From: an uncultured Roseicyclus sp.
GTDB taxonomy: Bacteria > Pseudomonadota > Alphaproteobacteria > Rhodobacterales > Rhodobacteraceae
Direction: 5' to 3'
NCBI GenBank assembly: GCA_947489665.1
Contig: CANLEH010000004.1
Span: 186,001-250,000, forward strand
DNA length: 64,000 nucleotides
Shown: piece after piece, positions 41,150 through 63,914 of the stretch
How positions within the stretch are numbered: position 1 is the first letter of the stretch
How the letters are laid out: each line of letters begins with the position of its first letter
Translations under genes and position numbers: made by a program
Notes under the pieces: model-generated
What the model saw: the letters and a program-made list of their open reading frames with translations, nothing else
Database searches by the model: none
Told to the model about the DNA's origin: nothing

Positions 41150-41797
41150 TCAGGCGCCACACGCGGGGTCGCCGGAGGTCACATCCGGCCAGACAATATC
41201 GGGTACATCATACCAATCCATTTCCGCGTAGCTCCATGCGACGCGATCCTCGCCACGCAGGGCCAAGCCGTGGAGGAAGTATTCGTAGTCATTGCCGATG
41301 TTCGAGACTGACCAGCGGAATGAGTTGCGGGTGACGTTGGTGAGCCCTTGCTCGGTTGCCGTGCGGCACATGGCGTTGGCGGAAATGACCTCCCCCACGA
41401 TGAGGGTGGCGACGAGGAGGGTGGCGCTGGTCAGCGTGATGCTGAACGGGCGCAGCGGCGCGCGGGTGAGTGTGAGCGCCAGGACGACAGCCGTGAGGGG
41501 GACCGCGTAGAGGGCGATTTGCCCTGTGATCGACAGGGCGGCGATATCGGAGACAAACACAAGGAGCACCGGTGGAAACAGAACTATTCCGATGCCCCAG
41601 GTCGGGCCGAACCGAAGAAGACCTATGAGCATCGCAACCACGGAGAGTTGCGCCATCGCAGAGGCCCAGGTGCCACCAGTGCCGTTTGCCATTCGGATCA
41701 GGCCCCGGATTGCGAAAAACATCCACAGGCCGCCGCAAACCAGGACCAGAACGATCCAGAGGATCGCGAAAAGAAACGCTCCGCCGGCCGAGGGCAC
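41150..41797 (-). CDS. Membrane protein, 215 aa
   Basis: Unrecognised protein with about five helices (for example FLFAILWIVLVLVCGGLWMFFAI, ALYAVPLTAVVLALTL, ITLTSATLLVATLIVGEVI) and a C-terminal soluble tail of about 60 residues with NIGNDYEYFLHGLALRGEDRVAWSYAEMDWYDVP. A GTG at 41797 is the likely start, five bases after the sdhB stop, so it may be read through from the sdh operon. No family assignment. Confidence 0.6.
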   Translation of the reverse strand: MPSAGGAFLFAILWIVLVLVCGGLWMFFAIRGLIRMANGTGGTWASAMAQLSVVAMLIGLLRFGPTWGIGIVLFPPVLLVFVSDIAALSITGQIALYAVPLTAVVLALTLTRAPLRPFSITLTSATLLVATLIVGEVISANAMCRTATEQGLTNVTRNSFRWSVSNIGNDYEYFLHGLALRGEDRVAWSYAEMDWYDVPDIVWPDVTSGDPACGA

Positions 41798-41801
41798 TCG
41801 T

Positions 41802-42581
41802 TTAGAGCTGCCGTTCGACCATCATCTTCTTGATGGACGCAATCGCCGCCGCGGGGTTGAGGCCCTTGGGGCAGGTCTTGGTGCAGTTCATGATGGTGTG
41901 GCAGCGGTAGAGCTTGAAGGGATCTTCCAGCTCATCCAGACGCTCCCCCGTTGCCTCATCGCGGCTGTCGATGATCCAGCGATAGGCGTGCAGGAGGGCG
42001 GCTGGCCCAAGGTAGCGGTCGCCGTTCCACCAGTAGGACGGGCAGGAGGTGGAGCAGGAGGCGCACATCACGCATTCATAAAGGCCGTCGAGCTTCTTGC
42101 GATCCTCGATGGACTGGCGCCATTCCTTTTCGGGGCGTTTCGTCTTGGTCTCAAGCCACGGCATGATAGAGGCGTGCTGGGCGTAGAAATGCGTGAGGTC
42201 GGGGATAAGGTCCTTCACCACGGGCATGTGGGGAAGGGGGTAGATTTTGACGTCGCCCTTCACCTCGTCATGGCCGTAGATGCAGGCGAGCGTGTTGATG
42301 CCGTCGATGTTCATCGCACAGGACCCGCAGATGCCTTCGCGGCAGGAGCGGCGGAAGGTGAGGGTTGGGTCGATCTCATTCTTGATCTTGATGAGTGCGT
42401 CGAGAACCATTGGCCCGCAGGTGTCCATGTCGACGAAATAGGTGTCGACGGAGGGGTTTTCGCCATCATCGGGGTTCCAGCGGTAAATCTGGAACTTGCG
42501 CACATTGGTGGCGCCTTCTGGTTTGGGCCAGGTCTTGCCGGTGCGGATGCGGGAATTCTTCGGGAGGGTCAGTTCAACCAT
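41802..42581 (-). CDS. sdhB: Succinate dehydrogenase iron-sulfur subunit
   Basis: Electron-transfer subunit of respiratory complex II, 259 residues. The [2Fe-2S] cluster ligands are in [14 protein letters not shown], the [4Fe-4S] ligands in CASCSTSCP and the [3Fe-4S] ligands in [17 protein letters not shown]. It passes electrons from SdhA FAD to quinone at SdhCD. It is the last sdh gene and is unusually separated from sdhA by two small exported-protein genes. GGAG precedes the ATG. Confidence 0.97.
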
Positions 42582-43007: not shown

Positions 43008-43282
43008 TGGAAGGCTTCCGCGGTGCAGGCCAGCGCGAGGTCGTAGGCCCCCATCTGCGACGTCGCCATTTGCTGAGCTTCAAGACCTTCTGCGTCGAGG
43101 ATCGCTTCGGCTTCGTCTGTTGTCATGTTCTCGGTGAAGCAGTCCGCCACTGCTTGCGCAACGTCCTGTGGCACGCCGTTGTTCACGCTGTCCTCCATGA
43201 TCATCATGTTGACGTCATCGAGAACCATTTGGGCGAAGGCCGGCGTGGCCATCAGGGCAAAGGCAAGCAGGGCTGTTCGCAT
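43004..43282 (-). CDS. Small exported protein between sdhA and sdhB
   Basis: Protein of 92 residues with a Sec signal peptide ([18 protein letters not shown], cleavage after FAQ or AFA). The mature 74 residues are acidic and Met-rich (MVLDDVNMMIMEDSV) with two cysteines (VADCFTEN, LALACTAEAF) that could pair. The ATG overlaps the sdhA stop by one base (TGATG). It shares the pattern of two spaced cysteines with the next lipoprotein gene. Function unknown. Confidence 0.72.
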   Translation of the reverse strand: MRTALLAFALMATPAFAQMVLDDVNMMIMEDSVNNGVPQDVAQAVADCFTENMTTDEAEAILDAEGLEAQQMATSQMGAYDLALACTAEAFQ

Positions 43283-45102
43283 CAATATACCCGGGCCTTG
43301 GGCTTGATCTTGTCCAGATCGATGCCGCCTTCGTTGTGGCCCATCAGCGGGTTGAGGTGCACAGGACGGTATTCGAGATCGACCTTGTTGCCATCGACGC
43401 GGGAGATGGTGTGCACGCGCCAATCGTTGTCGTCGCGGTCCGGGTAATCCTCATGCGCGTGGGCGCCGCGGGATTCTTTGCGCGCCTCGGCTCCTGCGAT
43501 GGTGGCGAGCGCGTTGGGCATCAGGTTGCCTAGTTCCAGCGTCTCCATCAGGTCGGAGTTCCAGATGAGGGAGCGATCGGTGACGGCTATGTCGTCGAGT
43601 TTGCCCGCGACGTCGGTCATTTTCTCCAAGCCCTCTGCGAGCGTTTTGTCGGTGCGGAAAACGGCGGCGTCGGCCTGCATTGTTTTCTGCATCTCAAGAC
43701 GCAGCTCGGCGGTTGGGGTGCCACCGTCGGCGTAGCGGACCGCATCGAAACGGCTGAGGGCCTTGTCGATTTCCGCCTGCGAGGCACGGGGGGTGGCGGA
43801 ATTTGGATCCACCACTTCGCCCGCCTTGATCGCAGCTGCGCGGCCGAACACCACGAGGTCGATGAGGGAGTTGGAGCCAAGGCGGTTTGCGCCGTGCACG
43901 GAGGCACAGCCCGCTTCGCCAACTGCCATCAGGCCCGGCACGATCGCGTCGGGGTCCTTCTTGGTCGGGTTGAGTACCTCGCCCCAGTAGTTCGTGGGGA
44001 TGCCGCCCATGTTGTAGTGGACGGTCGGCAGGACCGGGATCGGCTCTTTCGTGAGGTCCACACCGGCGAAGATGCGGGCGGATTCCGAGATGCCCGGCAG
44101 GCGTTCGGCCAGCGTTTCGGGTGGCAGGTGGTTGAGGTGCAGGTGAATGTGGTCGCCATCGGCACCCACGCCACGGCCTTCGCGGATTTCCATGGTCATG
44201 CAACGCGAGACCACATCGCGCGAGGCGAGGTCTTTGTAGGTCGGCGCGTAGCGTTCCATGAAACGCTCGCCCTCGGAGTTCGTCAGGTAGCCGCCTTCGC
44301 CGCGCGCGCCTTCGGTGATTAGACAGCCGGAGCCGTAGATGCCAGTGGGGTGGAATTGCACGAATTCCATATCCTGAAGCGGCAGGCCCGCGCGCGCGAC
44401 CATGCCGCCGCCATCGCCGGTGCAGGTGTGCGCGGAAGTGGCCGAGAAATAGGCGCGGCCATAGCCGCCGGTGGCCAGGACCGTCATCTTGGCGTGGAAG
44501 ACGTGCATCGTGCCATCGTCGAGCTTCCAGGCCACGACGCCGACGCATTGGCCGTCATCGTCCATCAAAAGGTCGGTGGCGAAATATTCGATGTAGAACT
44601 CGGCGTCGTTCTTGAGCGATTGGCCGTAGAGCGTGTGTAGGATCGCGTGTCCGGTGCGGTCAGCGGCGGCGCAAGTGCGCTGCACCGGGGGGCCTTCGCC
44701 AAATTCTGTCGTGTGACCACCGAAGGGGCGCTGGTAGATGGTGCCGTCCTCGGTGCGCGAGAAGGGGACGCCGTAGTGCTCAAGCTCATACACGGCCTTG
44801 GGTGCTTCGCGGGCGAGATATTCCATCGCATCCGTGTCGCCGAGCCAGTCCGAGCCTTTGACGGTGTCATACATGTGCCAGTGCCAATGGTCCGGGCCCA
44901 TATTGCCGAGCGAGGCGGCGATGCCACCCTGGGCCGCCACGGTGTGCGAGCGGGTCGGGAAGACCTTAGAGATGCACGCAGTTTTCAGGCCCTGTTCGGC
45001 CATGCCGAGCGTAGCGCGGAGACCGGAGCCGCCTGCGCCCACGACTACAACGTCGTAGGTGTGATGGGTCACATCGTAGGCCGGGGAGATGGTATCTTTC
45101 AT
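43282..45102 (-). CDS. sdhA: Succinate dehydrogenase flavoprotein subunit
   Basis: Catalytic subunit of complex II (succinate to fumarate), 606 residues. The FAD-binding [15 protein letters not shown] is near the N-terminus, the covalent-FAD histidine is in SHTVAAQGG, and the active-site [10 protein letters not shown] and [24 protein letters not shown] blocks are all present. It is the third gene of the sdhCDA group, 12 bases after sdhD. Confidence 0.97.
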
Positions 45103-45114
45103 CTGAAATGCCTC

Positions 45115-45486
45115 TCAGAGAGCGATTTGAACAAGGGCCACGAGGCCGCCAAGCGCGATGCCGTAGCTAAGGATCGTCGTCACAATGATGCAGGCCTTGC
45201 GGGTCAGGCCGCGGGTGTAATCCTCAATCAGCGTTTGCATGCCGAGGCGCAGGTGGTGGCTGCCAACAATGAGGTAGGCCGCAACAATCAGCGCGGGAAT
45301 GGGGCGCGACAACGTGGCCACGACGTCGGCGTGGTCAGAGCCAAGGGCCGAGCCGATGATGCCGAGGAAGAAGGGCGTCAGGATCAAGAGCGCCACGGAG
45401 GTGACGGTCATCGTCCAGTGATGGCCGGTGCCGGAGCGGGCGGCGCCCAGGCCGGTGACACGTTTGCGGTCGGTTACGAATGCCAT
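45115..45486 (-). CDS. sdhD: Succinate dehydrogenase membrane anchor subunit
   Basis: Small membrane subunit of complex II with three helices, 123 residues. The heme/quinone region reads GSHHLRLGMQTLIEDYTRG, where the first His residues are candidate heme ligands. It starts 12 bases after sdhC. Family recognition rests on this segment and the operon position. Confidence 0.92.
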   Translation of the reverse strand: MAFVTDRKRVTGLGAARSGTGHHWTMTVTSVALLILTPFFLGIIGSALGSDHADVVATLSRPIPALIVAAYLIVGSHHLRLGMQTLIEDYTRGLTRKACIIVTTILSYGIALGGLVALVQIAL

Positions 45487-45498
45487 GTCGTGCCTCCC

Positions 45499-45882
45499 TT
45501 AGATCGCGATGAGGGTCAGGAAGGTGAGCGCGACGGAGCCGATGATCATGCCCCAGCCCATCTTGTCGGACGTGTCGACATCGAGGCCCCGCCCGGTGTC
45601 CCAGATCAGATGCCGCACGCCGCCAAGGGCGTGATACCAGAGGCCGAGGACCGAGAGCGTCATGACGAGGTCACCGAAGAAGGACGTGATCAGGCCGTCG
45701 ATTGTGGCGAAGTACTCTGGCCCGGAGGCGGCGGCCATCATCCACCAGACGACGAGGATCGCGGAGACCAGCATCGCGTTGCCGGTGATGCGCACGAAGA
45801 TCGAGGTGATCGAGTTAAGCTGCGGACGATAGATCGTCAGGTGGGGTGAAAGCGGGCGGTTGCCGCGGTTCACGTCGGCCAT
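45499..45882 (-). CDS. sdhC: Succinate dehydrogenase cytochrome b556 subunit
   Basis: Membrane subunit of complex II with three helices, 127 residues. Diagnostic segments are NRPLSPHLTIYRPQLNSITSI near the N-terminus and the heme-binding YHALGGVRHLIWDTG. It is the first gene of the sdh operon; the promoter region contains twin TGTGATCACA palindromes 144-175 bases upstream. Confidence 0.95.
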   Translation of the reverse strand: MADVNRGNRPLSPHLTIYRPQLNSITSIFVRITGNAMLVSAILVVWWMMAAASGPEYFATIDGLITSFFGDLVMTLSVLGLWYHALGGVRHLIWDTGRGLDVDTSDKMGWGMIIGSVALTFLTLIAI

Positions 45883-46025: not shown

Positions 46026-46057
46026 GTGTGATCACACTTTGGAGTGGTGTGATCACA
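46026..46057. promoter_or_regulatory. Twin TGTGATCACA palindromes upstream of sdhC
   Basis: TGTGATCACA occurs at 46027-46036 (extended to 12 bases, GTGTGATCACAC) and at 46048-46057, with an 11-base spacer and 21 bases between centres. The pair lies between the mch stop and the sdhC start. The same pair with the same spacer is found upstream of sucC at 52974-53004. Confidence 0.75.
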
Positions 46058-52973: not shown

Positions 52974-53004
52974 TGTGATCACACTTTTTCAGACTGTGAT
53001 CACA
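52974..53004. promoter_or_regulatory. Twin TGTGATCACA palindromes upstream of sucC
   Basis: TGTGATCACA at 52974-52983 and 52995-53004, separated by 11 bases and 21 bases centre to centre, lie 111-141 bases upstream of sucC and in the gap to the divergent glycosyltransferase gene. The arrangement is the same as at 46027-46057 before sdhC. Confidence 0.75.
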
Positions 53005-53114: not shown

Positions 53115-54308
53115 ATGAACATCCACGAGTACCAGGCGAAGGCACTTCTGCGGCAATATGGGGCTCCGGTCTCGGACGGGCGTGTGGTTCTGAAAGCGGA
53201 AGATGCCAAGACAGCCGCGGGTGAGCTGGACGGGCCGTTGTGGGTGGTGAAGGCGCAGATCCACGCAGGTGGACGCGGCAAGGGCAGCTTCAAGGAAGCC
53301 GATGCCGGCGCGGCGGGCGGTGTGCGTCTGGCCAAGTCGGTCGAAGAAGCGGCGGACGAGGCAAAGAAGATGCTCGGCCGTACGCTGGTTACGCATCAGA
53401 CCGGACCCGTCGGCAAACAGGTCAACCGCATCTACATCGAAGACGGCTCAGGCATTGAGACCGAGATGTATCTGGCGCTTTTGGTCGACCGTCAGACCAG
53501 CCGGATCAGCTTTGTCTGCTCCACCGAAGGCGGCATGGACATTGAAGAAGTCGCCGCAGCAACGCCTGAAAAGATCCTTTCGTTCAGCGTTGATCCTGCG
53601 ACGGGCTACCAGCCTTACCATGGACGCCGCGTGGCGTTCTCGCTTGGTCTGGAAGGTCAGCAGGTCAAACAATGCGTGAAGCTGATGGGCATCCTGTTTA
53701 ACGCCTTCGTCGAGAAGGATATGGAGATGCTGGAGATCAACCCGCTGATCGTGACCGATGGCGGGGACCTGAAGGTGCTGGACGCGAAAGTGGGTTTCGA
53801 CGGAAACGCCGTCTACCGCCATGCCGATATCGCCGCGCTGCGGGACGAGACGGAAGAAGACCCCAAGGAATTGGCGGCATCGAAATTCGACCTCAACTAC
53901 ATCGCGTTGGATGGCGAGATTGGCTGCATGGTCAACGGCGCGGGCCTTGCGATGGCGACGATGGATATCATCAAGCTTTACGGGGCTGAGCCTGCGAACT
54001 TCCTGGACGTGGGTGGTGGTGCGACGAAGGAGAAGGTGACGGAAGCCTTCAAGATCATCACCAGCGACCCGAACGTGAAGGGCATCCTTGTCAACATTTT
54101 CGGTGGCATCATGCGCTGTGACATCATCGCAGAAGGCGTTGTTGCCGCCGTGAAAGAGGTGGGTCTGGAAGTGCCGCTTGTCGTGCGCCTTGAGGGCACG
54201 AACGTCGAGAAGGGCAAGGAGATCATCAATACCTCCGGCCTGAACGTGATCGCGGCCGACGATTTGAAAGACGGTGCGGAAAAGATCGTGGCCGCTGTGA
54301 AGGGGTAG
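53115..54308 (+). CDS. sucC: Succinyl-CoA synthetase beta subunit
   Basis: ADP/GDP-forming succinate-CoA ligase beta subunit, 397 residues, with the ATP-grasp domain ([40 protein letters not shown]) and the C-terminal CoA-ligase part ([28 protein letters not shown]). It pairs with SucD for the reversible conversion of succinyl-CoA to succinate. Unusually sucD is not adjacent: a cassette of five other genes lies between. Confidence 0.97.
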
Positions 54309-54471: not shown

Positions 54472-54920
54472 GCCAGACGAAGCGTCATATCATCATGGGG
54501 TGGGTCCGCTTTGCATGTTTGAGCGGTTTGGTTGCCCTTGGCTTGGGCGGCGCGGCCGGCGCACAGGCCCCGTCCGTCGGCAGTGCCGAGGCCAATCCGG
54601 CCGTGCTGGCGCGCGTGTTCGTCGCTGCCTGCATGCAAAGCAGCAGTTTGGGGGATGCGCAACAGATGCTGGCCAATGCGAGCATGGTGCCAAACCCGGA
54701 AACGGGGACCTATTTCCATCAGCAATTCGACATGTCGGTCAACCCGGCGGGTGAGCGTTGTTCGATGGTTTTTTCGGTAGAGGATGCCAACTTGGCCGCT
54801 GACACGTTCCGCACCTCTGCCGCGACCATGATTGGTGTGCAGGCCACGGATATCGAAATCCTGCAATTGGACGGCGTGGCAGAGAATTTCTTCCGGGCCA
54901 GCGTGGAGGCGCGTTGGTGA
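54468..54920 (+). CDS. Exported hypothetical protein
   Basis: Periplasmic protein with a signal peptide (ends GLVALGLGGAAGAQA). Start is GTG at 54468, which overlaps the small frame before it (GTGA), or ATG at 54495; about 150 or 141 residues. The mature part carries two cysteines (AACMQSSS and ERCSMVFS) and the phrase VNPAGERCSMVF. It shares a pattern with the 185-residue exported gene downstream (cysteine pair, helical middle). Its stop overlaps the methyltransferase start (TGATG). Function unknown. Confidence 0.65.
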   Translation: MSQTKRHIIMGWVRFACLSGLVALGLGGAAGAQAPSVGSAEANPAVLARVFVAACMQSSSLGDAQQMLANASMVPNPETGTYFHQQFDMSVNPAGERCSMVFSVEDANLAADTFRTSAATMIGVQATDIEILQLDGVAENFFRASVEARW

Positions 54921-55732
54921 TGGCGGATGGTGTTCAAATGGAAACGCCCGTTCGCGCCTGCCCGTCCTGTGGGGCGGAAGGGCCCGCGGAGATGCCCAAA
55001 TTCCATCGCGATGAGTGGCGGATGGGGCGCTGTCGGTCGTGCGATCTGGTCTATCTGACCAACCCGCCGGGATACGAGGCCCTTGTCGACGATTTCGCCT
55101 GGGAAAAGACTTGGGCCGCCGAAAAGGCCGCACGGCTTGAGGCGCGGCCTTTTCTGCAGCGCGCTGATCTTGCCACGCGCTGGCGGCACCGGATCGGGCG
55201 CAAACCGGATGCGGTGCGCTATGCGGACTGGTTTGGCAGCGGCAATCTGTTGAATGTTGGATGCGCGGCAGCGTCGGTGCAATATCCGGGCTTCACGCAA
55301 TACGGCATCGAAATCTCCGAGGATCTGGCGGCGAAGGCCGACGAAAACCTGCGGACGCATGGCGGATATTGCGTGCACGGGCCAGGTGCAGAGGCGATCA
55401 AGGCCTTTCCGGATGCCATGTTTGATGGGGTGATCCTGCGATCCTACCTTGAGCATGAGGACCACCCGCATACGGTTCTGCAACATGTGGCGCGCATCCT
55501 GAAACCCGGTGGGCGCGCTTATGTGCGTGTGCCGAATTTCAACAGCCTTGGCCGCATGATCTTTCAGCGCAAATGGGTCGGGCTGCGTTACCCGGACCAT
55601 GTCCAGTATTTCACGTTGGATACCTTGCGCGACCTTGCGCGCCGGACCGGGTTTTCGGTGCGGTTGCTGAATCCCATCCGGCTGCCTCTGGATGACAATA
55701 TCAACGTCCTGTTCGAGCGGGAGGCAGCATGA
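54920..55732 (+). CDS. Class I SAM-dependent methyltransferase with zinc ribbon
   Basis: Protein of 270 residues. The N-terminus has a CxxC...CxxC zinc ribbon (CPSCGAEG ... CRSCDLVYL, about residues 14-45). A Rossmann methyltransferase follows, with motif I near LLNVGCAAASVQYPGF and IEISEDL, and ILRSYLEHEDHPHTVL. This layout is common among methyltransferases acting on polysaccharides or natural products. It lies in the cassette between sucC and sucD, coupled by one-base and four-base overlaps to the exported genes on both sides, so it is transcribed with the TCA genes although the role seems unrelated. Confidence 0.85.
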   Translation: MADGVQMETPVRACPSCGAEGPAEMPKFHRDEWRMGRCRSCDLVYLTNPPGYEALVDDFAWEKTWAAEKAARLEARPFLQRADLATRWRHRIGRKPDAVRYADWFGSGNLLNVGCAAASVQYPGFTQYGIEISEDLAAKADENLRTHGGYCVHGPGAEAIKAFPDAMFDGVILRSYLEHEDHPHTVLQHVARILKPGGRAYVRVPNFNSLGRMIFQRKWVGLRYPDHVQYFTLDTLRDLARRTGFSVRLLNPIRLPLDDNINVLFEREAA

Positions 55733-56286
55733 TCGGCCCGTCGCGCAAACGCAGCCTGATCTGGGCGATGCTGCATGTGGCCGGGATTGTCGGGCTGATG
55801 GCGCTTGCCACGACCACGCGGGCGCAGGGGCAGGAAGATGCAGGCCAGGTGGCCGAGGATGCCAGTGAAGCCTTTGCGCTGAACTGTTTCAGCCCCTTCA
55901 TGACCGCAGCGCGTGCGGGTGAGGTTCTTGCGGGCCCCGGTGTGCGGGTCGATTTCTACGACCTTGATCCGTTCTCCAACGCGGCGCCGTCCCCCGTGAC
56001 GGGGCGTCCTGCGACAACCGGCACTGATCGCCGGTGTGAAGTCGCGTTCGACGGAGATTACGCCGATTTGGCCGCCAGCGCCGCGATTGCCGGGTTGGAG
56101 ACGGAAGGCATTCGCACGGAGGCCCCGATCCCCGACAGGTATCAGCCGAATGAAGGCACAGCGCTTCTAGGTGCGCGCCAGTTGAACCCGCGCCGGATTG
56201 CGGTTGTTCATGTTGGCACTCGCCCGGGGCCCAATGGGATCGAGACGTTCATGTTCGTGGAGCGGCTGATGCCGATTGCGCCATGA
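55729..56286 (+). CDS. Exported hypothetical protein, 185 aa
   Basis: Unrecognised periplasmic protein whose hydrophobic N-terminal segment (SLIWAMLHVAGIVGLMALATTTRAQ) is a signal peptide. The mature part has two cysteines (LNCFSPFM and RRCEVAFD) and an acidic linker after the signal (EDAGQVAEDASEAFALNC). It overlaps both neighbours by four bases. The cysteine spacing and size recall the exported gene at 54468-54920. Confidence 0.68.
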   Translation: MIGPSRKRSLIWAMLHVAGIVGLMALATTTRAQGQEDAGQVAEDASEAFALNCFSPFMTAARAGEVLAGPGVRVDFYDLDPFSNAAPSPVTGRPATTGTDRRCEVAFDGDYADLAASAAIAGLETEGIRTEAPIPDRYQPNEGTALLGARQLNPRRIAVVHVGTRPGPNGIETFMFVERLMPIAP

Positions 56287-56831
56287 CCATTGAAGTGAAC
56301 CCCAATGAGGCCCTGACGCTCCACAGACGTGCGCTAGGCTGGAAATACATCCTAGTGGCGCTGTTTATGGTTGCGCTTGGCGGAAGCATTTTCTGGATCG
56401 GACCGGAAGAAGGTGAAACCGGCATCGTGATTGCCGCCGTGATTTGTATCGTCATCGGTGTGCTTGGCTTGGCTGCCGTCGTGGTGACAAAACGCAAGGC
56501 CGGTCAGCCCATGATCACGCTGGCACCGGACGGTGTGACCTTTGAGGTTCAAGGCGGCGGGCCGGTGGCCTGGTCGGAGGTCACGGGCCTTGGCTCGATC
56601 AACGTGAAGGGGCAATCCGGTTTGATTGTTCAGATCACGGATGCGGCGCACGCGCGTGTCGTGCCGTCGCGCGCCATGCGTTCGGCCGCGAAACTGGACC
56701 AAGCCTTGCTCGGGTCAAAGGGCCTGACGGTTTGGCACAATCAGATCGAAGGCTCGCTGGAAGAGCTGGCCGGGCTGATCGCACTTTACTCCAACGCCCA
56801 TGGCGGCCCCGATCTCAGGCAAGCCGCATGA
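56283..56831 (+). CDS. Membrane protein, STM3941-like
   Basis: Protein of 182 residues with two helices (about residues 21-42 and 46-68) and a C-terminal soluble domain with ITLAPDGVTFEVQGGGPVAWSEVTGLGSINVKGQ and a helical tail. This two-helix-plus-PH-like arrangement resembles the STM3941 family of predicted membrane proteins, whose role is unknown. It is the last gene of the cassette and is 36 bases before sucD. Confidence 0.65.
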   Translation: MTIEVNPNEALTLHRRALGWKYILVALFMVALGGSIFWIGPEEGETGIVIAAVICIVIGVLGLAAVVVTKRKAGQPMITLAPDGVTFEVQGGGPVAWSEVTGLGSINVKGQSGLIVQITDAAHARVVPSRAMRSAAKLDQALLGSKGLTVWHNQIEGSLEELAGLIALYSNAHGGPDLRQAA

Positions 56832-56867: not shown

Positions 56868-57749
56868 ATGGCCGTACTCGTTGATGAAAATACCAAGGTG
56901 ATTTGCCAGGGCTTCACCGGCTCGCAGGGCACGTTCCATTCGGAACAGGCGATTGCCTATGGCACCAAGATGGTCGGCGGTGTGACGCCCGGTAAAGGGG
57001 GCATGACCCATCTGGATCTGCCCGTCTTCAATTCGGTTCATGAGGCCAAGGCCGTGACGGAGGCGAATGCGTCGGTGATCTATGTGCCGCCGCCCTTCGC
57101 AGCGGACTCGATCCTTGAGGCCATTGATGCCGAGATGGAGCTCATCTGCTGCATCACCGAAGGCATTCCGGTTCTGGACATGATGAAGGTCAAGCGTGCG
57201 CTGGAAGGGTCCAGCAGCATCCTGATCGGGCCGAACTGCCCGGGTATTATCACGCCCGACGCTTGCAAGATCGGCATCATGCCCGGCCATATCCACCGCC
57301 GCGGGTCGGTTGGCGTTGTGTCCCGTTCGGGGACGCTGACCTATGAGGCGGTCAAGCAGACCTCGGACGTCGGTTTGGGCCAATCCACCTGCGTCGGCAT
57401 CGGCGGCGACCCGATCAAAGGGACGGAGCATATCGATGTGCTGGAATGGTTCCTGGCCGACGACGAGACGCATTCGATCATTATGATCGGTGAGATCGGC
57501 GGCTCGGCCGAGGAAGAAGCCGCGCAGTTCCTGGCGGATGAAGCCAAGCGTGGCCGCAAGAAGCCGGTTGCCGGTTTCATCGCGGGTCGCACGGCCCCTC
57601 CGGGCCGGCGCATGGGCCATGCCGGTGCGATTGTTGCCGGCGGCAAGGGCGGCGCCGAGGACAAGATCGAGGCGATGAAAAGCGCCGGTATCGTTGTCGC
57701 CGATAGCCCCGCGACACTGGGTGAAGCAGTTCTGAAGGCGATTGGGTAG
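56868..57749 (+). CDS. sucD: Succinyl-CoA synthetase alpha subunit
   Basis: Catalytic alpha subunit, 293 residues. It has the CoA-binding [21 protein letters not shown], the signature GGVTPGKGG, the [14 protein letters not shown] segment, and the phosphohistidine in [17 protein letters not shown]. It acts with SucC. AGGAGG lies upstream of the start at 56868. Confidence 0.97.
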
Positions 57750-57753
57750 AGCC

Positions 57754-58383
57754 ATGACCTTCGGCGAGGCGATATCCCACAACCTTCGCAACATGTTCCG
57801 GTTCGCCGGGCGCGATCCGCGGTCGTCCTTCTGGTGGTACGTGCTGTTCGTGGTTGTCGGCTCGATTGTGGCGAATGCGATTGATGCATCCCTTCTGCTT
57901 CTGCGCGCGGACTCGTTTCTGAACATGATGGAGTCGCTGGAGGAGCCTGAGCAGATCCTTGAGCTGTTTGCCGGAGGCCCGTGGATTTATTTCACTCTGG
58001 CGCCGGTGACGATCATCTGGTCGGTGATCAATATCGTGCCGCTGTTTTCCTGCGGCATCCGGCGCAGGCATGATTGCGACAAGTCTGGCACGGCCTTCGC
58101 GATCATCTGTCTGCTGGCGCTGGTTTCAACCGTCGTGGCCACGATCTACATGTTCCAGTTCTTCAGCGTGATGATGGATTTCGCGATGACCTCGGCCCAG
58201 GATCCCAATTTCGCAACCTCTCCCTTTGAGGACGATGAGGCACTGATGTCGCTTGTGGGCTTCATGGGCATCGCGTCTGTCTTGTCGTTGGTCCAGTTCG
58301 TGGCCGGGATCATCATCCTGATAATGATGGCCTCAAAAGGCACGGATGGTCCGAACCAGTACGGCGAGGATCCTTTGGCATGA
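57754..58383 (+). CDS. DUF805 membrane protein, first of three
   Basis: Membrane protein of 209 residues with about four helices. It begins MTFGEAISHNLRNMFRFAGRDPRSSFWWYVLF, the DUF805 start, contains CGIRRRHDCDKSG and ends GPNQYGEDPLA, the conserved C-terminus. It lies four bases after sucD. Function of the family is unknown. Confidence 0.85.
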   Translation: MTFGEAISHNLRNMFRFAGRDPRSSFWWYVLFVVVGSIVANAIDASLLLLRADSFLNMMESLEEPEQILELFAGGPWIYFTLAPVTIIWSVINIVPLFSCGIRRRHDCDKSGTAFAIICLLALVSTVVATIYMFQFFSVMMDFAMTSAQDPNFATSPFEDDEALMSLVGFMGIASVLSLVQFVAGIIILIMMASKGTDGPNQYGEDPLA

Positions 58384-58970
58384 CATTCACCGAGGCTATC
58401 CGGCACAACATCGTCCACTGCACCAACTTCCGGGATCGCGACCCGCGGTCGGCCTATTGGTGGTATGTGTTGTTCGTGTTTCTTGGGTCTATCCCGGCGT
58501 TCATCCTCGACTTCGCGATTTTCTGGCCGGGGATCGGCGACGGAGAGGTCGGTCGGTTTCTGGCTGAGAACTTCCAGTCGATCACCGATTTCTACATCAA
58601 CGTGATGCCGATCACGACCTTCTGGTATTTGCTAAACTACCTTCCGATCCTGGCCTGTGGTGTGCGTCGGATGAATGATCAGAACCGGCCCGCATGGTGG
58701 TTTGTGGCCACGATTGTATTCGTTTCGGTCATGTCGGTGGTCGTCTTCAATATCACCGGCCCACAGACGGCCGAGTTGATGAGTGTGGTGTTCGACCCGA
58801 ATTCTTCGGTTTTCGAGCTGAACCAGGCTGTCGCGGATTTCGAAGAGCTGAACCGCACATCGTCGATGCTGTCGGCCATCCAGACCCTGCCGAGCATCGT
58901 GATCATCATCTGGATGGCGTCGCGCGGGACCATTGGCCCGAACCGCCATGGGGAGGATCCTGTCGCATGA
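58380..58970 (+). CDS. DUF805 membrane protein, second of three
   Basis: Membrane protein of 196 residues, clearly related to the one before: MTFTEAIRHNIVHCTNFRDRDPRSAYWWYVLF, then CGVRRMNDQNRPAWWFV and a GPNRHGEDPVA ending. It overlaps both neighbours by four bases (ATGA). Confidence 0.85.
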   Translation: MTFTEAIRHNIVHCTNFRDRDPRSAYWWYVLFVFLGSIPAFILDFAIFWPGIGDGEVGRFLAENFQSITDFYINVMPITTFWYLLNYLPILACGVRRMNDQNRPAWWFVATIVFVSVMSVVVFNITGPQTAELMSVVFDPNSSVFELNQAVADFEELNRTSSMLSAIQTLPSIVIIIWMASRGTIGPNRHGEDPVA

Positions 58971-59386
58971 GTTTCACCGAGAGCATCGCCACCTGTTTCA
59001 GCAAATATGTCGATTTCTCCGGGCGCGCGCGGCGGTCGGAGTTTTGGTGGTTTGCGCTGTTCCTTGCGATAGTCGACATCGCCTTGTCCCTCGTGTCGGA
59101 TGCGTTGTCGGGGCTTTGGAATCTTGGCACGCTTCTGCCCTATGCGGCGGTGGCCTGGCGGCGGTTGCATGACACCGACCGGACCGGTCTTTGGACCTTG
59201 GTGCCGCTGATCCCGCTTATCGTGATGTTCATTGGCATGTTCACGGGTGATCCGTTCAACCCTGCCGGTCCGTTGTTCTGGCTGGGTCTGGCCGGTGTCA
59301 TCGCCTTTTCGATTGTGAACATCGTCTTCTGGGCGTCGCGCGGCACGTCTGGCCCAAACCAATATGGGGAGGACCCGTTGGAATGA
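58967..59386 (+). CDS. DUF805 membrane protein, third of three
   Basis: Shorter copy of 139 residues (MSFTESIATCFSKYVDFSGRARRSEFWWFALF ... RRLHDTDRTGLWTLVP ... GPNQYGEDPLE). Here the second-helix HDTDRTG motif is the standard DUF805 form, while the other two copies have diverged from it. The middle region is about 60 residues shorter. It is 55 bases before sucA. Confidence 0.87.
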   Translation: MSFTESIATCFSKYVDFSGRARRSEFWWFALFLAIVDIALSLVSDALSGLWNLGTLLPYAAVAWRRLHDTDRTGLWTLVPLIPLIVMFIGMFTGDPFNPAGPLFWLGLAGVIAFSIVNIVFWASRGTSGPNQYGEDPLE

Positions 59387-59441
59387 CCTTCTCGATCCAC
59401 TCCGCAACCTTTGTTCCACGTTCAAACCGGGAGGTCTTGTG

Positions 59442-62393
59442 ATGACCGAGCAATCCCCCAACGACCAGTTCCATGCCTCCAGCTTCATGCAGGGGCACAA
59501 CGCGGAATATCTGGAGCAGTTGTACGCGCAATATGCCAAGGACCCCTCGGCGGTTGACGCGGCCTGGGCGGACTTTTTCCAGGCGCTAGGCGATGCGGAT
59601 GCGGCGCCCGCCGAGGCCGAAGGGCCATCGTGGGCGCGCCGCGATTGGCCGCCGGTTCCGGGAGATGACCTGACAGCAGCGCTGACCGGTGAATGGCCAG
59701 TGGAGGAGGCCAAATCCGCAGGCAAGAAGATTGCCGAGAAGGCGAAGGAAGCCCAGGTCGAGCTGACGGATGATCAGATCCAGCGTGCCGTTCTGGATTC
59801 GATCCGGGCGCTGATGATCATCCGCGCCTACCGGATCCGGGGCCATCTGGTCGCGGATCTCGACCCGCTTGGCATGCGGGACCAGACCCCGCACCCGGAA
59901 CTTGATCCGGCCTCCTACGGGTTTGCGGAAGGCGACATGGACCGCCCGATTTTCATCGACAATGTGCTTGGGCTTCAAATGGCCTCCATGCGGCAGATCG
60001 TCGAGATTGTGCGCCGCACCTATTGCGGCACCTTTGCGCTGCAATACATGCACATCTCTGATCCCGTTCAGGCCAGCTGGCTGAAAGAGCGGATCGAGGG
60101 TTATGGCAAGGAAATCGCCTTCACCAAGAACGGGCGCAAGGCCATCCTGAACAAGATGGTCGAGGCCGAGGGTTTCGAGAAGTTCCTGCACGTCAAGTAC
60201 ATGGGCACCAAGCGGTTCGGACTGGATGGCGGCGAAAGCCTGATCCCCGCGATGGAGCAGATCATCAAGCGCGGCGGTGCGCTGGGGCTGGAAGAAATCG
60301 TGATCGGGATGCCCCACCGGGGCCGGTTAAGCGTTCTGGCCAACGTGATGGGCAAGCCCTACCGCGCGATTTTCAACGAATTCCAGGGCGGGTCGTTCAA
60401 GCCTGAGGATGTCGATGGGTCGGGCGATGTGAAGTATCACCTTGGCGCGTCGAGTGACCGTGAATTTGACGGCAACAACGTGCACCTGTCGCTGACCGCG
60501 AACCCGTCGCACCTTGAGGCCGTGAACCCGGTGGTTCTGGGCAAAGTGCGCGCCAAGCAGGATCAGAAAGGCGATGTGGATCGCACCAAGGTCATGGGCA
60601 TTTTGCTGCATGGCGACGCGGCCTTTGCGGGCCAGGGCGTGGTGGCCGAGGGCTTTGGCCTGTCGGGCCTGCGTGGGCACAAGACCGGCGGGACGATCCA
60701 CATCGTCGTGAACAACCAGATCGGCTTTACGACAGCGCCGCATTTCAGCCGGTCCAGCCCCTATCCGACAGATATCGCGCTGATGGTTGAGGCGCCGATC
60801 TTCCACGTCAATGGGGATGACCCTGAAGCCGTGGTGCACGCCGCCCGCGTGGCGACGGAATACCGGCAGATGTTCCACAAGGACGTGGTGCTCGACATCA
60901 TCTGTTATCGCCGTTTCGGCCATAACGAAGGTGATGAGCCGATGTTCACCAATCCGATCATGTATAAGAAGATCAAGGGCCACAAAACGACCCTTGCGCT
61001 CTATACCGAGCGGCTGGTCAAGGACGGCCTCATCCCCGAGGGCGAGATCGAGGATATGAAGGCGGCGTTCCAGAGCTACCTGAATGACGAGTTCGAAGCC
61101 GGCAAGGATTACAAGCCCAACAAGGCCGATTGGCTGGATGGGCGGTGGAGCCATCTCGACCGCGAGAAGGACGAATATGATCGGGGCACGACCTCGATCA
61201 AGCCGGAAACCTTCGCAGAGATCGGCCGTGCGCTGACGACAGCGCCTGATGGGTTCAACTTGCACAAGACGGTTGGGCGTCTGCTTGAGACGAAGAAGCA
61301 GTTGTTTGAAACCGGCAAGGGCTTTGACTGGGCCACTGGCGAGGCGTTGGCGTTTGGCAGCCTGATGACTGAGGGCTACCCCGTGCGCCTGTCGGGCCAG
61401 GATTCCACGCGCGGCACGTTTAGCCAGCGACATTCGGGGTTGATCGATCAATCGACGGAAGAACGATATTATCCGCTCAACCATATCCGGGATGGACAGG
61501 CGCATTACGAGGTCATCGACTCGATGCTGTCGGAATATGCGGTGCTTGGGTTCGAGTATGGCTATTCGCTGGCCGAACCCAACGCGCTGACACTGTGGGA
61601 GGCGCAGTTTGGCGATTTCGCCAATGGTGCGCAGATCATGTTCGATCAGTTCATCTCGTCCGGTGAGCGGAAATGGCTGCGGATGTCCGGCCTGGTCATG
61701 CTGTTGCCGCACGGGTTTGAGGGCCAAGGGCCTGAGCACTCGTCCGCCCGGCTGGAGCGGTTCCTGCAGATGTCGGCAGAGGACAATTGGATTGTCGCCA
61801 ATTGCACGACGCCTGCAAACTACTTCCACATCCTGCGGCGGCAGATCCATCGCGACTTCCGCAAGCCGCTGGTTCTAATGACCCCGAAATCACTGTTGCG
61901 TCACAAGCTGGCCGTCAGCGAAGCCGAGGATTTCACCACAGGCTCCAGCTTCCATCGGTGCCTGTGGGACGATGCGCAAAAGGGCAATTCGGACACTAAG
62001 CTGGTGGCCGACGACAAGATCAAACAAGTCGTGATCTGTTCGGGCAAGGTCTACTACGACCTTCTTGAAGAGCGTGATGCGCGCGGGATCGACGACGTTT
62101 ACTTGTTGCGGTTGGAGCAATTCTATCCCTTCCCGGCCCTTGCCTTGGTCAAGGAGTTGGAGCGCTTCAAGCAGGCCAAGATCGTCTGGTGCCAGGAAGA
62201 GCCCAAGAACCAGGGCGCCTGGTCGTTCATCGAGCCGAACCTGGAATGGGTTCTGACCCGCATCGGCGCTGATACCAAACGGCCCCGGTACGCGGGTCGC
62301 AATGCCTCTGCCTCGCCCGCGACGGGCCTGGCCTCCGTCCACAAATCCCAACAAGCCGCGCTGATCGACAGCGCGCTGACCATCGAAGGATAA
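59442..62393 (+). CDS. sucA: 2-oxoglutarate dehydrogenase E1
   Basis: Thiamine-diphosphate-dependent decarboxylase of the 2-oxoglutarate dehydrogenase complex, 983 residues. Features include the N-terminal E2-binding region (SFMQGHNAEYLEQLYAQYAKDP), EEIVIGMPHRGRLSVLANV, the TPP site GDAAFAGQGVVAEG ... NNQIGFTT, and the Pyr-domain STRGTFSQRHSG. The ATG at 59442 follows GGGAGG. It is seven bases ahead of sucB, and the same transcript supplies both. Confidence 0.96.
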   Translation: MTEQSPNDQFHASSFMQGHNAEYLEQLYAQYAKDPSAVDAAWADFFQALGDADAAPAEAEGPSWARRDWPPVPGDDLTAALTGEWPVEEAKSAGKKIAEKAKEAQVELTDDQIQRAVLDSIRALMIIRAYRIRGHLVADLDPLGMRDQTPHPELDPASYGFAEGDMDRPIFIDNVLGLQMASMRQIVEIVRRTYCGTFALQYMHISDPVQASWLKERIEGYGKEIAFTKNGRKAILNKMVEAEGFEKFLHVKYMGTKRFGLDGGESLIPAMEQIIKRGGALGLEEIVIGMPHRGRLSVLANVMGKPYRAIFNEFQGGSFKPEDVDGSGDVKYHLGASSDREFDGNNVHLSLTANPSHLEAVNPVVLGKVRAKQDQKGDVDRTKVMGILLHGDAAFAGQGVVAEGFGLSGLRGHKTGGTIHIVVNNQIGFTTAPHFSRSSPYPTDIALMVEAPIFHVNGDDPEAVVHAARVATEYRQMFHKDVVLDIICYRRFGHNEGDEPMFTNPIMYKKIKGHKTTLALYTERLVKDGLIPEGEIEDMKAAFQSYLNDEFEAGKDYKPNKADWLDGRWSHLDREKDEYDRGTTSIKPETFAEIGRALTTAPDGFNLHKTVGRLLETKKQLFETGKGFDWATGEALAFGSLMTEGYPVRLSGQDSTRGTFSQRHSGLIDQSTEERYYPLNHIRDGQAHYEVIDSMLSEYAVLGFEYGYSLAEPNALTLWEAQFGDFANGAQIMFDQFISSGERKWLRMSGLVMLLPHGFEGQGPEHSSARLERFLQMSAEDNWIVANCTTPANYFHILRRQIHRDFRKPLVLMTPKSLLRHKLAVSEAEDFTTGSSFHRCLWDDAQKGNSDTKLVADDKIKQVVICSGKVYYDLLEERDARGIDDVYLLRLEQFYPFPALALVKELERFKQAKIVWCQEEPKNQGAWSFIEPNLEWVLTRIGADTKRPRYAGRNASASPATGLASVHKSQQAALIDSALTIEG

Positions 62394-62399
62394 ATAGAC

Positions 62400-63914
<1,515 letters not shown>

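Follow-up and report, generated by a model that had tools for sequence, protein, structure and literature searches.

Which regulator reads the pair of identical palindromes that precedes two TCA-cycle operons, and why do the palindromes of each pair stand at the same distance? The question arises from a 64-kb stretch of Roseicyclus sp. DNA (the whole stretch analyzed, hereafter the window), in which the twin sequence TGTGATCACA-N11-TGTGATCACA occurs without mismatch upstream of both sdhC (46027-46057) and sucC (52974-53004), each time with an 11-base spacer and a center-to-center distance of 21 bp. An initial annotation had drawn attention to these twin palindromes with their 11-base spacer and had proposed that one unrecognized regulator is common to sdh and suc. 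Our analysis strongly supports the common regulator and points to the GntR-family protein AkgR: the twins are very probably AkgR operators, at which pairs of dimers on one helix face would activate both operons.

Twin palindromes upstream of the sdh and suc operons

The sdh operon is encoded on the minus strand and begins with sdhC (45499-45882; Pfam PF01127, Sdh_cyt), followed by sdhD (45115-45486; PF01127, named from its position after sdhC), sdhA (43282-45102; FAD_binding_2 and Succ_DH_flav_C), and sdhB (41802-42581; Fer2_3 and Fer4 models). Its twin consists of a proximal palindrome TGTGATCACA at 46027-46036, 144 bp from the sdhC start, and a distal one at 46048-46057. The open reading frame (ORF) downstream of sdhB (41150-41797) was considered as a GntR gene and rejected for lack of a Pfam match. 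The suc operon on the plus strand begins with sucC (53115-54308; ATP-grasp_2 and Ligase_CoA), which is preceded by a distal palindrome at 52974-52983 and a proximal one at 52995-53004, 110 bp from the sucC start. It continues with sucD (56868-57749; CoA_binding and Ligase_CoA), the 2-oxoglutarate dehydrogenase E1 gene sucA (59364-62393, from a putative start codon; E1_dh and OxoGdeHyase_C), and sucB (62400-63914), named from its position between sucA and lpd. The lpd gene follows sucB beyond the window (about C4:251234-252622) and has a single exact palindrome upstream (C4:251114-251123); the exact-palindrome scan of the Roseicyclus sp. genome revealed no separate site before sucA. The gap between sucC and sucD (54914-56831) holds a methyltransferase-like ORF (54914-55732) and two ORFs without a Pfam match, and the gap between sucD and sucA (57742-58970) holds two DUF805 ORFs; matches to these interposed ORFs occupy the same places in some relatives (L034 and L053).

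The four exact copies of TGTGATCACA in the window all lie within the two twins, in agreement with the initial annotation, which had seen no further exact copy. It had also located the sucC twin correctly, whereas its start of the sdhC twin, 46026, was one base early. Under a second-order Markov model, 0.063 exact 10-mers and 6e-8 exact N11 twins are expected by chance per window, and the twins are excluded as a product of chance. The entire Roseicyclus sp. genome (4.13 Mb) contains eight exact palindromes versus about four expected by chance: four in the two twins, one upstream of lpd, and three inside coding sequence. The coding sites (two in a methyltransferase-like gene and one in a TPP-enzyme gene) were considered as pointers to further regulon members and rejected, as their counts fit chance. 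Exact pairs in this genome were limited to the two window twins, both for spacers of 8-14 bases and for spacers of 1-31 bases. Single palindromes with up to two mismatches were found 20 times in the window versus a mean of 21.2 in shuffled sequence; they are thus not enriched, and the signal resides in the exact, paired sites.

Probable assignment of the palindromes to AkgR

AkgR, reportedly described as a regulator in 2015, is what we take RSP_0981 to be. The available portions of the literature present AkgR as a GntR-family activator of Rhodobacter sphaeroides with sites that contain GTGATCAC (PMC6365646), and the GntR protein RSP_0981 as a predicted regulator of sucCD, sdh, and sucAB-lpd (PMC4344238). 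The same operator core, GTGATCAC, is present in both window twins. Because it had already been printed as the AkgR motif, as the accessible part of PMC6365646 demonstrates, the proposal of an unrecognized regulator was dropped; the accompanying guess at a GntR/FadR-type reader proved apt, AkgR being a GntR-family protein.

A GntR family search of the Roseicyclus sp. genome yielded 19 matches, 18 of them above the family cut-off and none inside the window. The initial annotation was right that the window itself holds no such regulator gene, as far as GntR genes are concerned, but the AkgR ortholog is encoded only 3.2 kb past the window end, on the minus strand and adjoining lpd (match at C4:253169-253840). 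By its predicted GntR (PF00392, E 1e-12) and FCD (PF07729, E 2.3e-20) domains, the lpd-linked protein belongs to the FCD subfamily of the GntR family. Its identification relies on the genome G051, which is probably that of R. sphaeroides, as its gene order (sucA, sucD, sucC, mdh, sdhCDA, sdhB, GntR) agrees with the printed RSP numbers. The GntR protein encoded beside sdhB in G051 found the lpd-linked protein as its best match in the Roseicyclus sp. genome (75% identity, E 2e-96), with the next match at E 2e-11. Provided that G051 is indeed R. sphaeroides, the lpd-linked gene is the predicted ortholog of RSP_0981. A search profile with the G051 protein at its head gave its best named match in Cereibacter ovatus (94%), and R. 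sphaeroides was absent from the named AkgR relatives covered (the best 80 of 573 confirmed). In the 4.6 Mb of G051, exact TGTGATCACA occurs three times, once in the suc twin and twice in the sdh twin; here, in what is probably R. sphaeroides, the palindrome is selective by itself, every copy being at suc or sdh. It is less selective elsewhere (8 copies in Roseicyclus sp., 29 in G125), and there the 20-21 bp pair marks the targets.

We propose that each TGTGATCACA would be read by one AkgR dimer and that two dimers, separated by about two turns, would occupy the same helix face upstream of the sdh and suc promoters; the paired dimers would switch both TCA-cycle operons on together. AkgR binding at the window twins and cooperativity between the dimers are predictions of this model, and activation in Roseicyclus sp. 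is expected because the published description of AkgR is that of an activator. Cooperative binding fits the near-fixed spacing of the palindromes. One named regulator would thereby connect two operons of the TCA cycle within a single bacterial family.

Conservation of the twin palindromes in Rhodobacteraceae

Exact pairs with a free spacer of 1-31 bases were searched in 295 Rhodobacteraceae genomes, one per genus, using the reversed motif as a control. They were detected in 188 of the 295 genomes, and the reversed motif in 0 of 295. Among 75 listed pairs, taken from a larger total, the center-to-center distance was 21 bp in 70, 20 bp in four, and 31 bp in one. We then considered 20 stretches of 20 kb fetched around listed pairs, each of which therefore has at least one pair built into it. 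Within them, a twin with up to two mismatches was located upstream of 19 of the 19 sucC genes and 14 of the 16 sdhC genes found. The two sdhC genes of these 16 relatives that had no such twin belong to L044 and L052; in the latter, where sucC is not in view, a twin was found upstream of sucA. All 34 exact pairs at 20 or 21 bp with inspected surroundings (26 in the fetched stretches, four in the G210, G055, and G294 loci, two in G125, and two in the window) precede sucC (22 pairs), sdhC (11 pairs), or sucA (one pair); G055 has two pairs at 20 bp. At the loci of the named AkgR relatives (best 80 of 573), the 21-bp twin with up to three mismatches was present at 8 of 8 sucC and 5 of 5 sdhC genes, counting genes in the flank with enough upstream sequence. 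The initial annotation had held that random scatter of the twin, or its absence before sdh and suc in close relatives, would speak against its proposal; the scans revealed a real shared site instead.

Spread of the pair outside the family was considered and rejected. In a class sample of 289 genomes, the exact pair was present in four of the five members of the family and in one of the 284 genomes from other families, and the reversed control gave one genome in 289. The single outside pair is spaced at 22 bp and lies in a 3-kb locus where none of the sdh, suc, and akgR queries matched.

A few genomes showed additional arrangements. The exact pair at 31 bp (about three helical turns) is from G136 (L072:9841-9881) and does not precede sdh or suc genes; it is located between amidase-like and transporter-like reading frames, named by eye. 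G125 has 29 exact palindromes, compared with 8 in Roseicyclus sp. and 3 in G051, and four pairs outside the 75 listed, of which the two at 21 bp are the normal twins of sdhC and sucC. G125 also has a cluster of three palindromes, set 15 and 27 bp apart, inside a 621-codon reading frame (L194:4624-4675) and not before sdhC, sucC, or sucA.

Co-occurrence of AkgR and the twin palindromes

An AkgR match at E <= 1e-20 was detected in 278 of the 295 family genomes, and the exact pair in 2 of the 17 genomes without one. With the threshold set at E <= 1e-50, the exact pair was present in 184 of 268 genomes with AkgR versus 4 of 27 without it (Fisher p 6e-8, uncorrected for relatedness). We also inspected the sucC upstream regions of AkgR-positive genomes chosen for lacking the exact pair, and a sucC twin was found in 18 of these 19, spaced at 21 bp in 16 and at 20 bp in the other two; in G054, the one without it, the AkgR match is weak (E 1.6e-49). 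In a further set of 18 genomes, 15 lacked an AkgR match at E 1e-20 and the remaining three had a weak one; three of the 18 carried a sucC twin. This comparison leaves out G021 and G172, in which sucC was unmatched or matched only by a paralog, and G037, which gave no match. The regulator is thus present where the sites are, with the exceptions of G096, G256, and G264 (completeness 77, 93, and 77%), which have a sucC twin and no AkgR match at E 1e-20, and of G019 (E 4e-40) and G273 (E 2e-47), which have an exact pair and only a weak AkgR match.

Among the named loci (best 80 of 573), 22 of 80 had a site with up to one mismatch at the start of AkgR or in the roughly 200 bp preceding it, 15 of these sites being exact, which suggests self-control in some lineages. 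No such site was found in the other 58 of these 80 loci, and no exact site precedes the akgR gene of Roseicyclus sp. Of the same 80 loci (again the best 80 of 573), 35 have lpd and 4 have sdhB no more than 3 kb from AkgR; neither gene lies that close in 41, some of which have short flanks. Two Cereibacter AkgR loci gave no sdh or suc match within the flanks searched.

These data bear on whether a protein other than AkgR could read the sites. The shape of the motif suits GntR/FadR regulators generally, and 17 other GntR-family matches of Roseicyclus sp. lie above the cut-off; yet the RSP_0981 candidate matches the lpd-linked gene clearly better than any of them, and the next-closest GntR in the Roseicyclus sp. 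genome, the sole one tested as a control, was found at E <= 1e-50 in only 15 of the 295 genomes, so that reading by another GntR-family regulator is very improbable. A CRP/FNR-family protein would be suggested by the half-site TGTGA, which is like the half-site of CRP. However, the CRP site is TGTGA-N6-TCACA, with six bases between its half-sites, whereas the half-sites of the window twins abut with zero bases between them; the initial annotation had likewise set the twins apart from the CRP consensus. The motif is moreover the one printed for AkgR in the accessible text of PMC6365646, and the twin co-occurs with a GntR gene, all of which makes a reader of the CRP/FNR family extremely unlikely.

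Spacing and anatomy of the twin palindromes

The spacing was assessed in 57 upstream regions. The 41 sucC regions comprise those of 19 relatives, 18 AkgR-positive genomes, three twin-bearing AkgR-negative genomes, and the window, leaving out L083 (no twin) and 15 AkgR-negative genomes without a twin; the 16 sdhC regions comprise 15 of the 16 relatives with sdhC and the window, leaving out L052 (no twin). When the spacing was left free between 11 and 100 bp, 53 of the 57 regions gave 21 bp or a tie including 21, three gave 20 bp, and one had no twin. Within the sucC set, which was selected for having a twin, 38 of 41 regions gave 21 bp alone, one a tie including 21, and two 20 bp; within the sdhC set, 14 of 16 gave 21 bp, one gave 20 bp, and one was without a twin. 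The spacer sequence itself is variable, and the start codon lies at distances that range from 96 to 149 for sucC and from 115 to 190 for sdhC.

The pair could also consist of two independent single operators, each read by AkgR, with a spacing that stems from common promoter descent rather than from cooperativity. The sdh and suc twins could each be an ancestral inheritance, and lpd and some akgR genes have single exact sites only. Against this stand the recovery of 21 bp in nearly all regions with free spacing (the sucC set being chosen for the twin), the variable spacer letters and drifting start-codon distance, and the identical spacing at two unrelated promoters. We therefore consider independent operators unlikely and favor paired AkgR dimers acting on one helix face.

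The base-by-base anatomy was derived from twins at 21 bp with up to three mismatches only (39 sucC and 14 sdhC twins). Across the 39 sucC twins, the 8-base core GTGATCAC is unchanged in both palindromes, apart from a single base in one row. A C or G follows the distal palindrome in 38 of the 39 and precedes the proximal palindrome in 35, the outer flanks are mostly A/T, the spacer center is A/T-rich, and a second A/T patch is located 9-12 bases beyond the proximal palindrome. The 14 sdhC twins share the A/T outer flanks and the downstream patch, but their inner C/G bases are weakly conserved (10 and 11 of 14). Downstream of the twin, sucC and sdhC have different conserved stretches, and hence we do not claim any class of activation.

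A separate GTTAGCGCTAAC-like motif, picked after looking, was noticed near sdhC in 12 of 16 regions (up to three mismatches; relatives L036-L051) versus 1 of 16 shuffled, and near sucC in 10 of 41 versus 5 shuffled; the sdhC region of the window has only a version with four mismatches. The motif resembles the printed CceR motif. The printed CceR pattern itself was found near sdhC in 3 of 16 regions versus 3 shuffled, showing no excess.

The regulator and its motif are already known; any novelty would lie in the near-fixed two-turn spacing of the pair. Paired sites were not met in the literature on AkgR, its motif, and tandem GntR operators; the primary 2015 AkgR description was outside this scope, and publication elsewhere is possible. 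A stricter rule, perhaps as yet unprinted, can be put forward tentatively, and we hold it to be possible rather than probable: at both of its main promoters, AkgR might act solely as a dimer pair on a dedicated composite operator, in which palindromes locked at 20-21 bp would be combined with outer flanks of A/T, a spacer rich in A/T, and the downstream A/T patch and, in the suc twins, with inner flanks of C/G that give the element as a whole an approximate symmetry. If true, this would be a geometric rule retained at two unrelated promoters throughout hundreds of genera in a single family, and AkgR would be a model two-dimer GntR activator. Owing to the fixed spacing, it should be simple to test whether an activator of the GntR type can depend on two dimers bound to the same face of the helix.

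Comparison with known regulatory systems

The Roseicyclus sp. system resembles the AkgR (RSP_0981) regulon in its GntR-family regulator, its core GTGATCAC, and its targets sucCD, sdh, and sucAB-lpd: twins precede sdhC and sucC, and a single exact site precedes lpd. The probable R. sphaeroides genome G051 likewise has 21-bp twins before sucC (one mismatch) and sdhC (exact). In contrast, akgR is located beside lpd in Roseicyclus sp. and beside sdhB in G051. The nearest solved structure by sequence is McbR, presumably from E. coli (PDB 4p9f; AkgR profile residues 22-209, E 5e-22).

The same core palindrome, GTGATCAC, is also used by the deoxyribonate regulator PS417_07240 of Pseudomonas simiae, which is 32% identical to AkgR (PMC6365646). 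As described in the available part of that publication, the P. simiae regulator differs in having one palindrome (-47 to -40) before a catabolic cluster and no TCA-operon twins (PMC6365646). CceR (RSP_1663) is similar to AkgR in its predicted action on sdh and central carbon genes; however, according to the accessible portion of its description, it is a LacI-family regulator with the motif GTT-N6-8-AAC and not the TGTGATCACA palindrome (PMC4344238).
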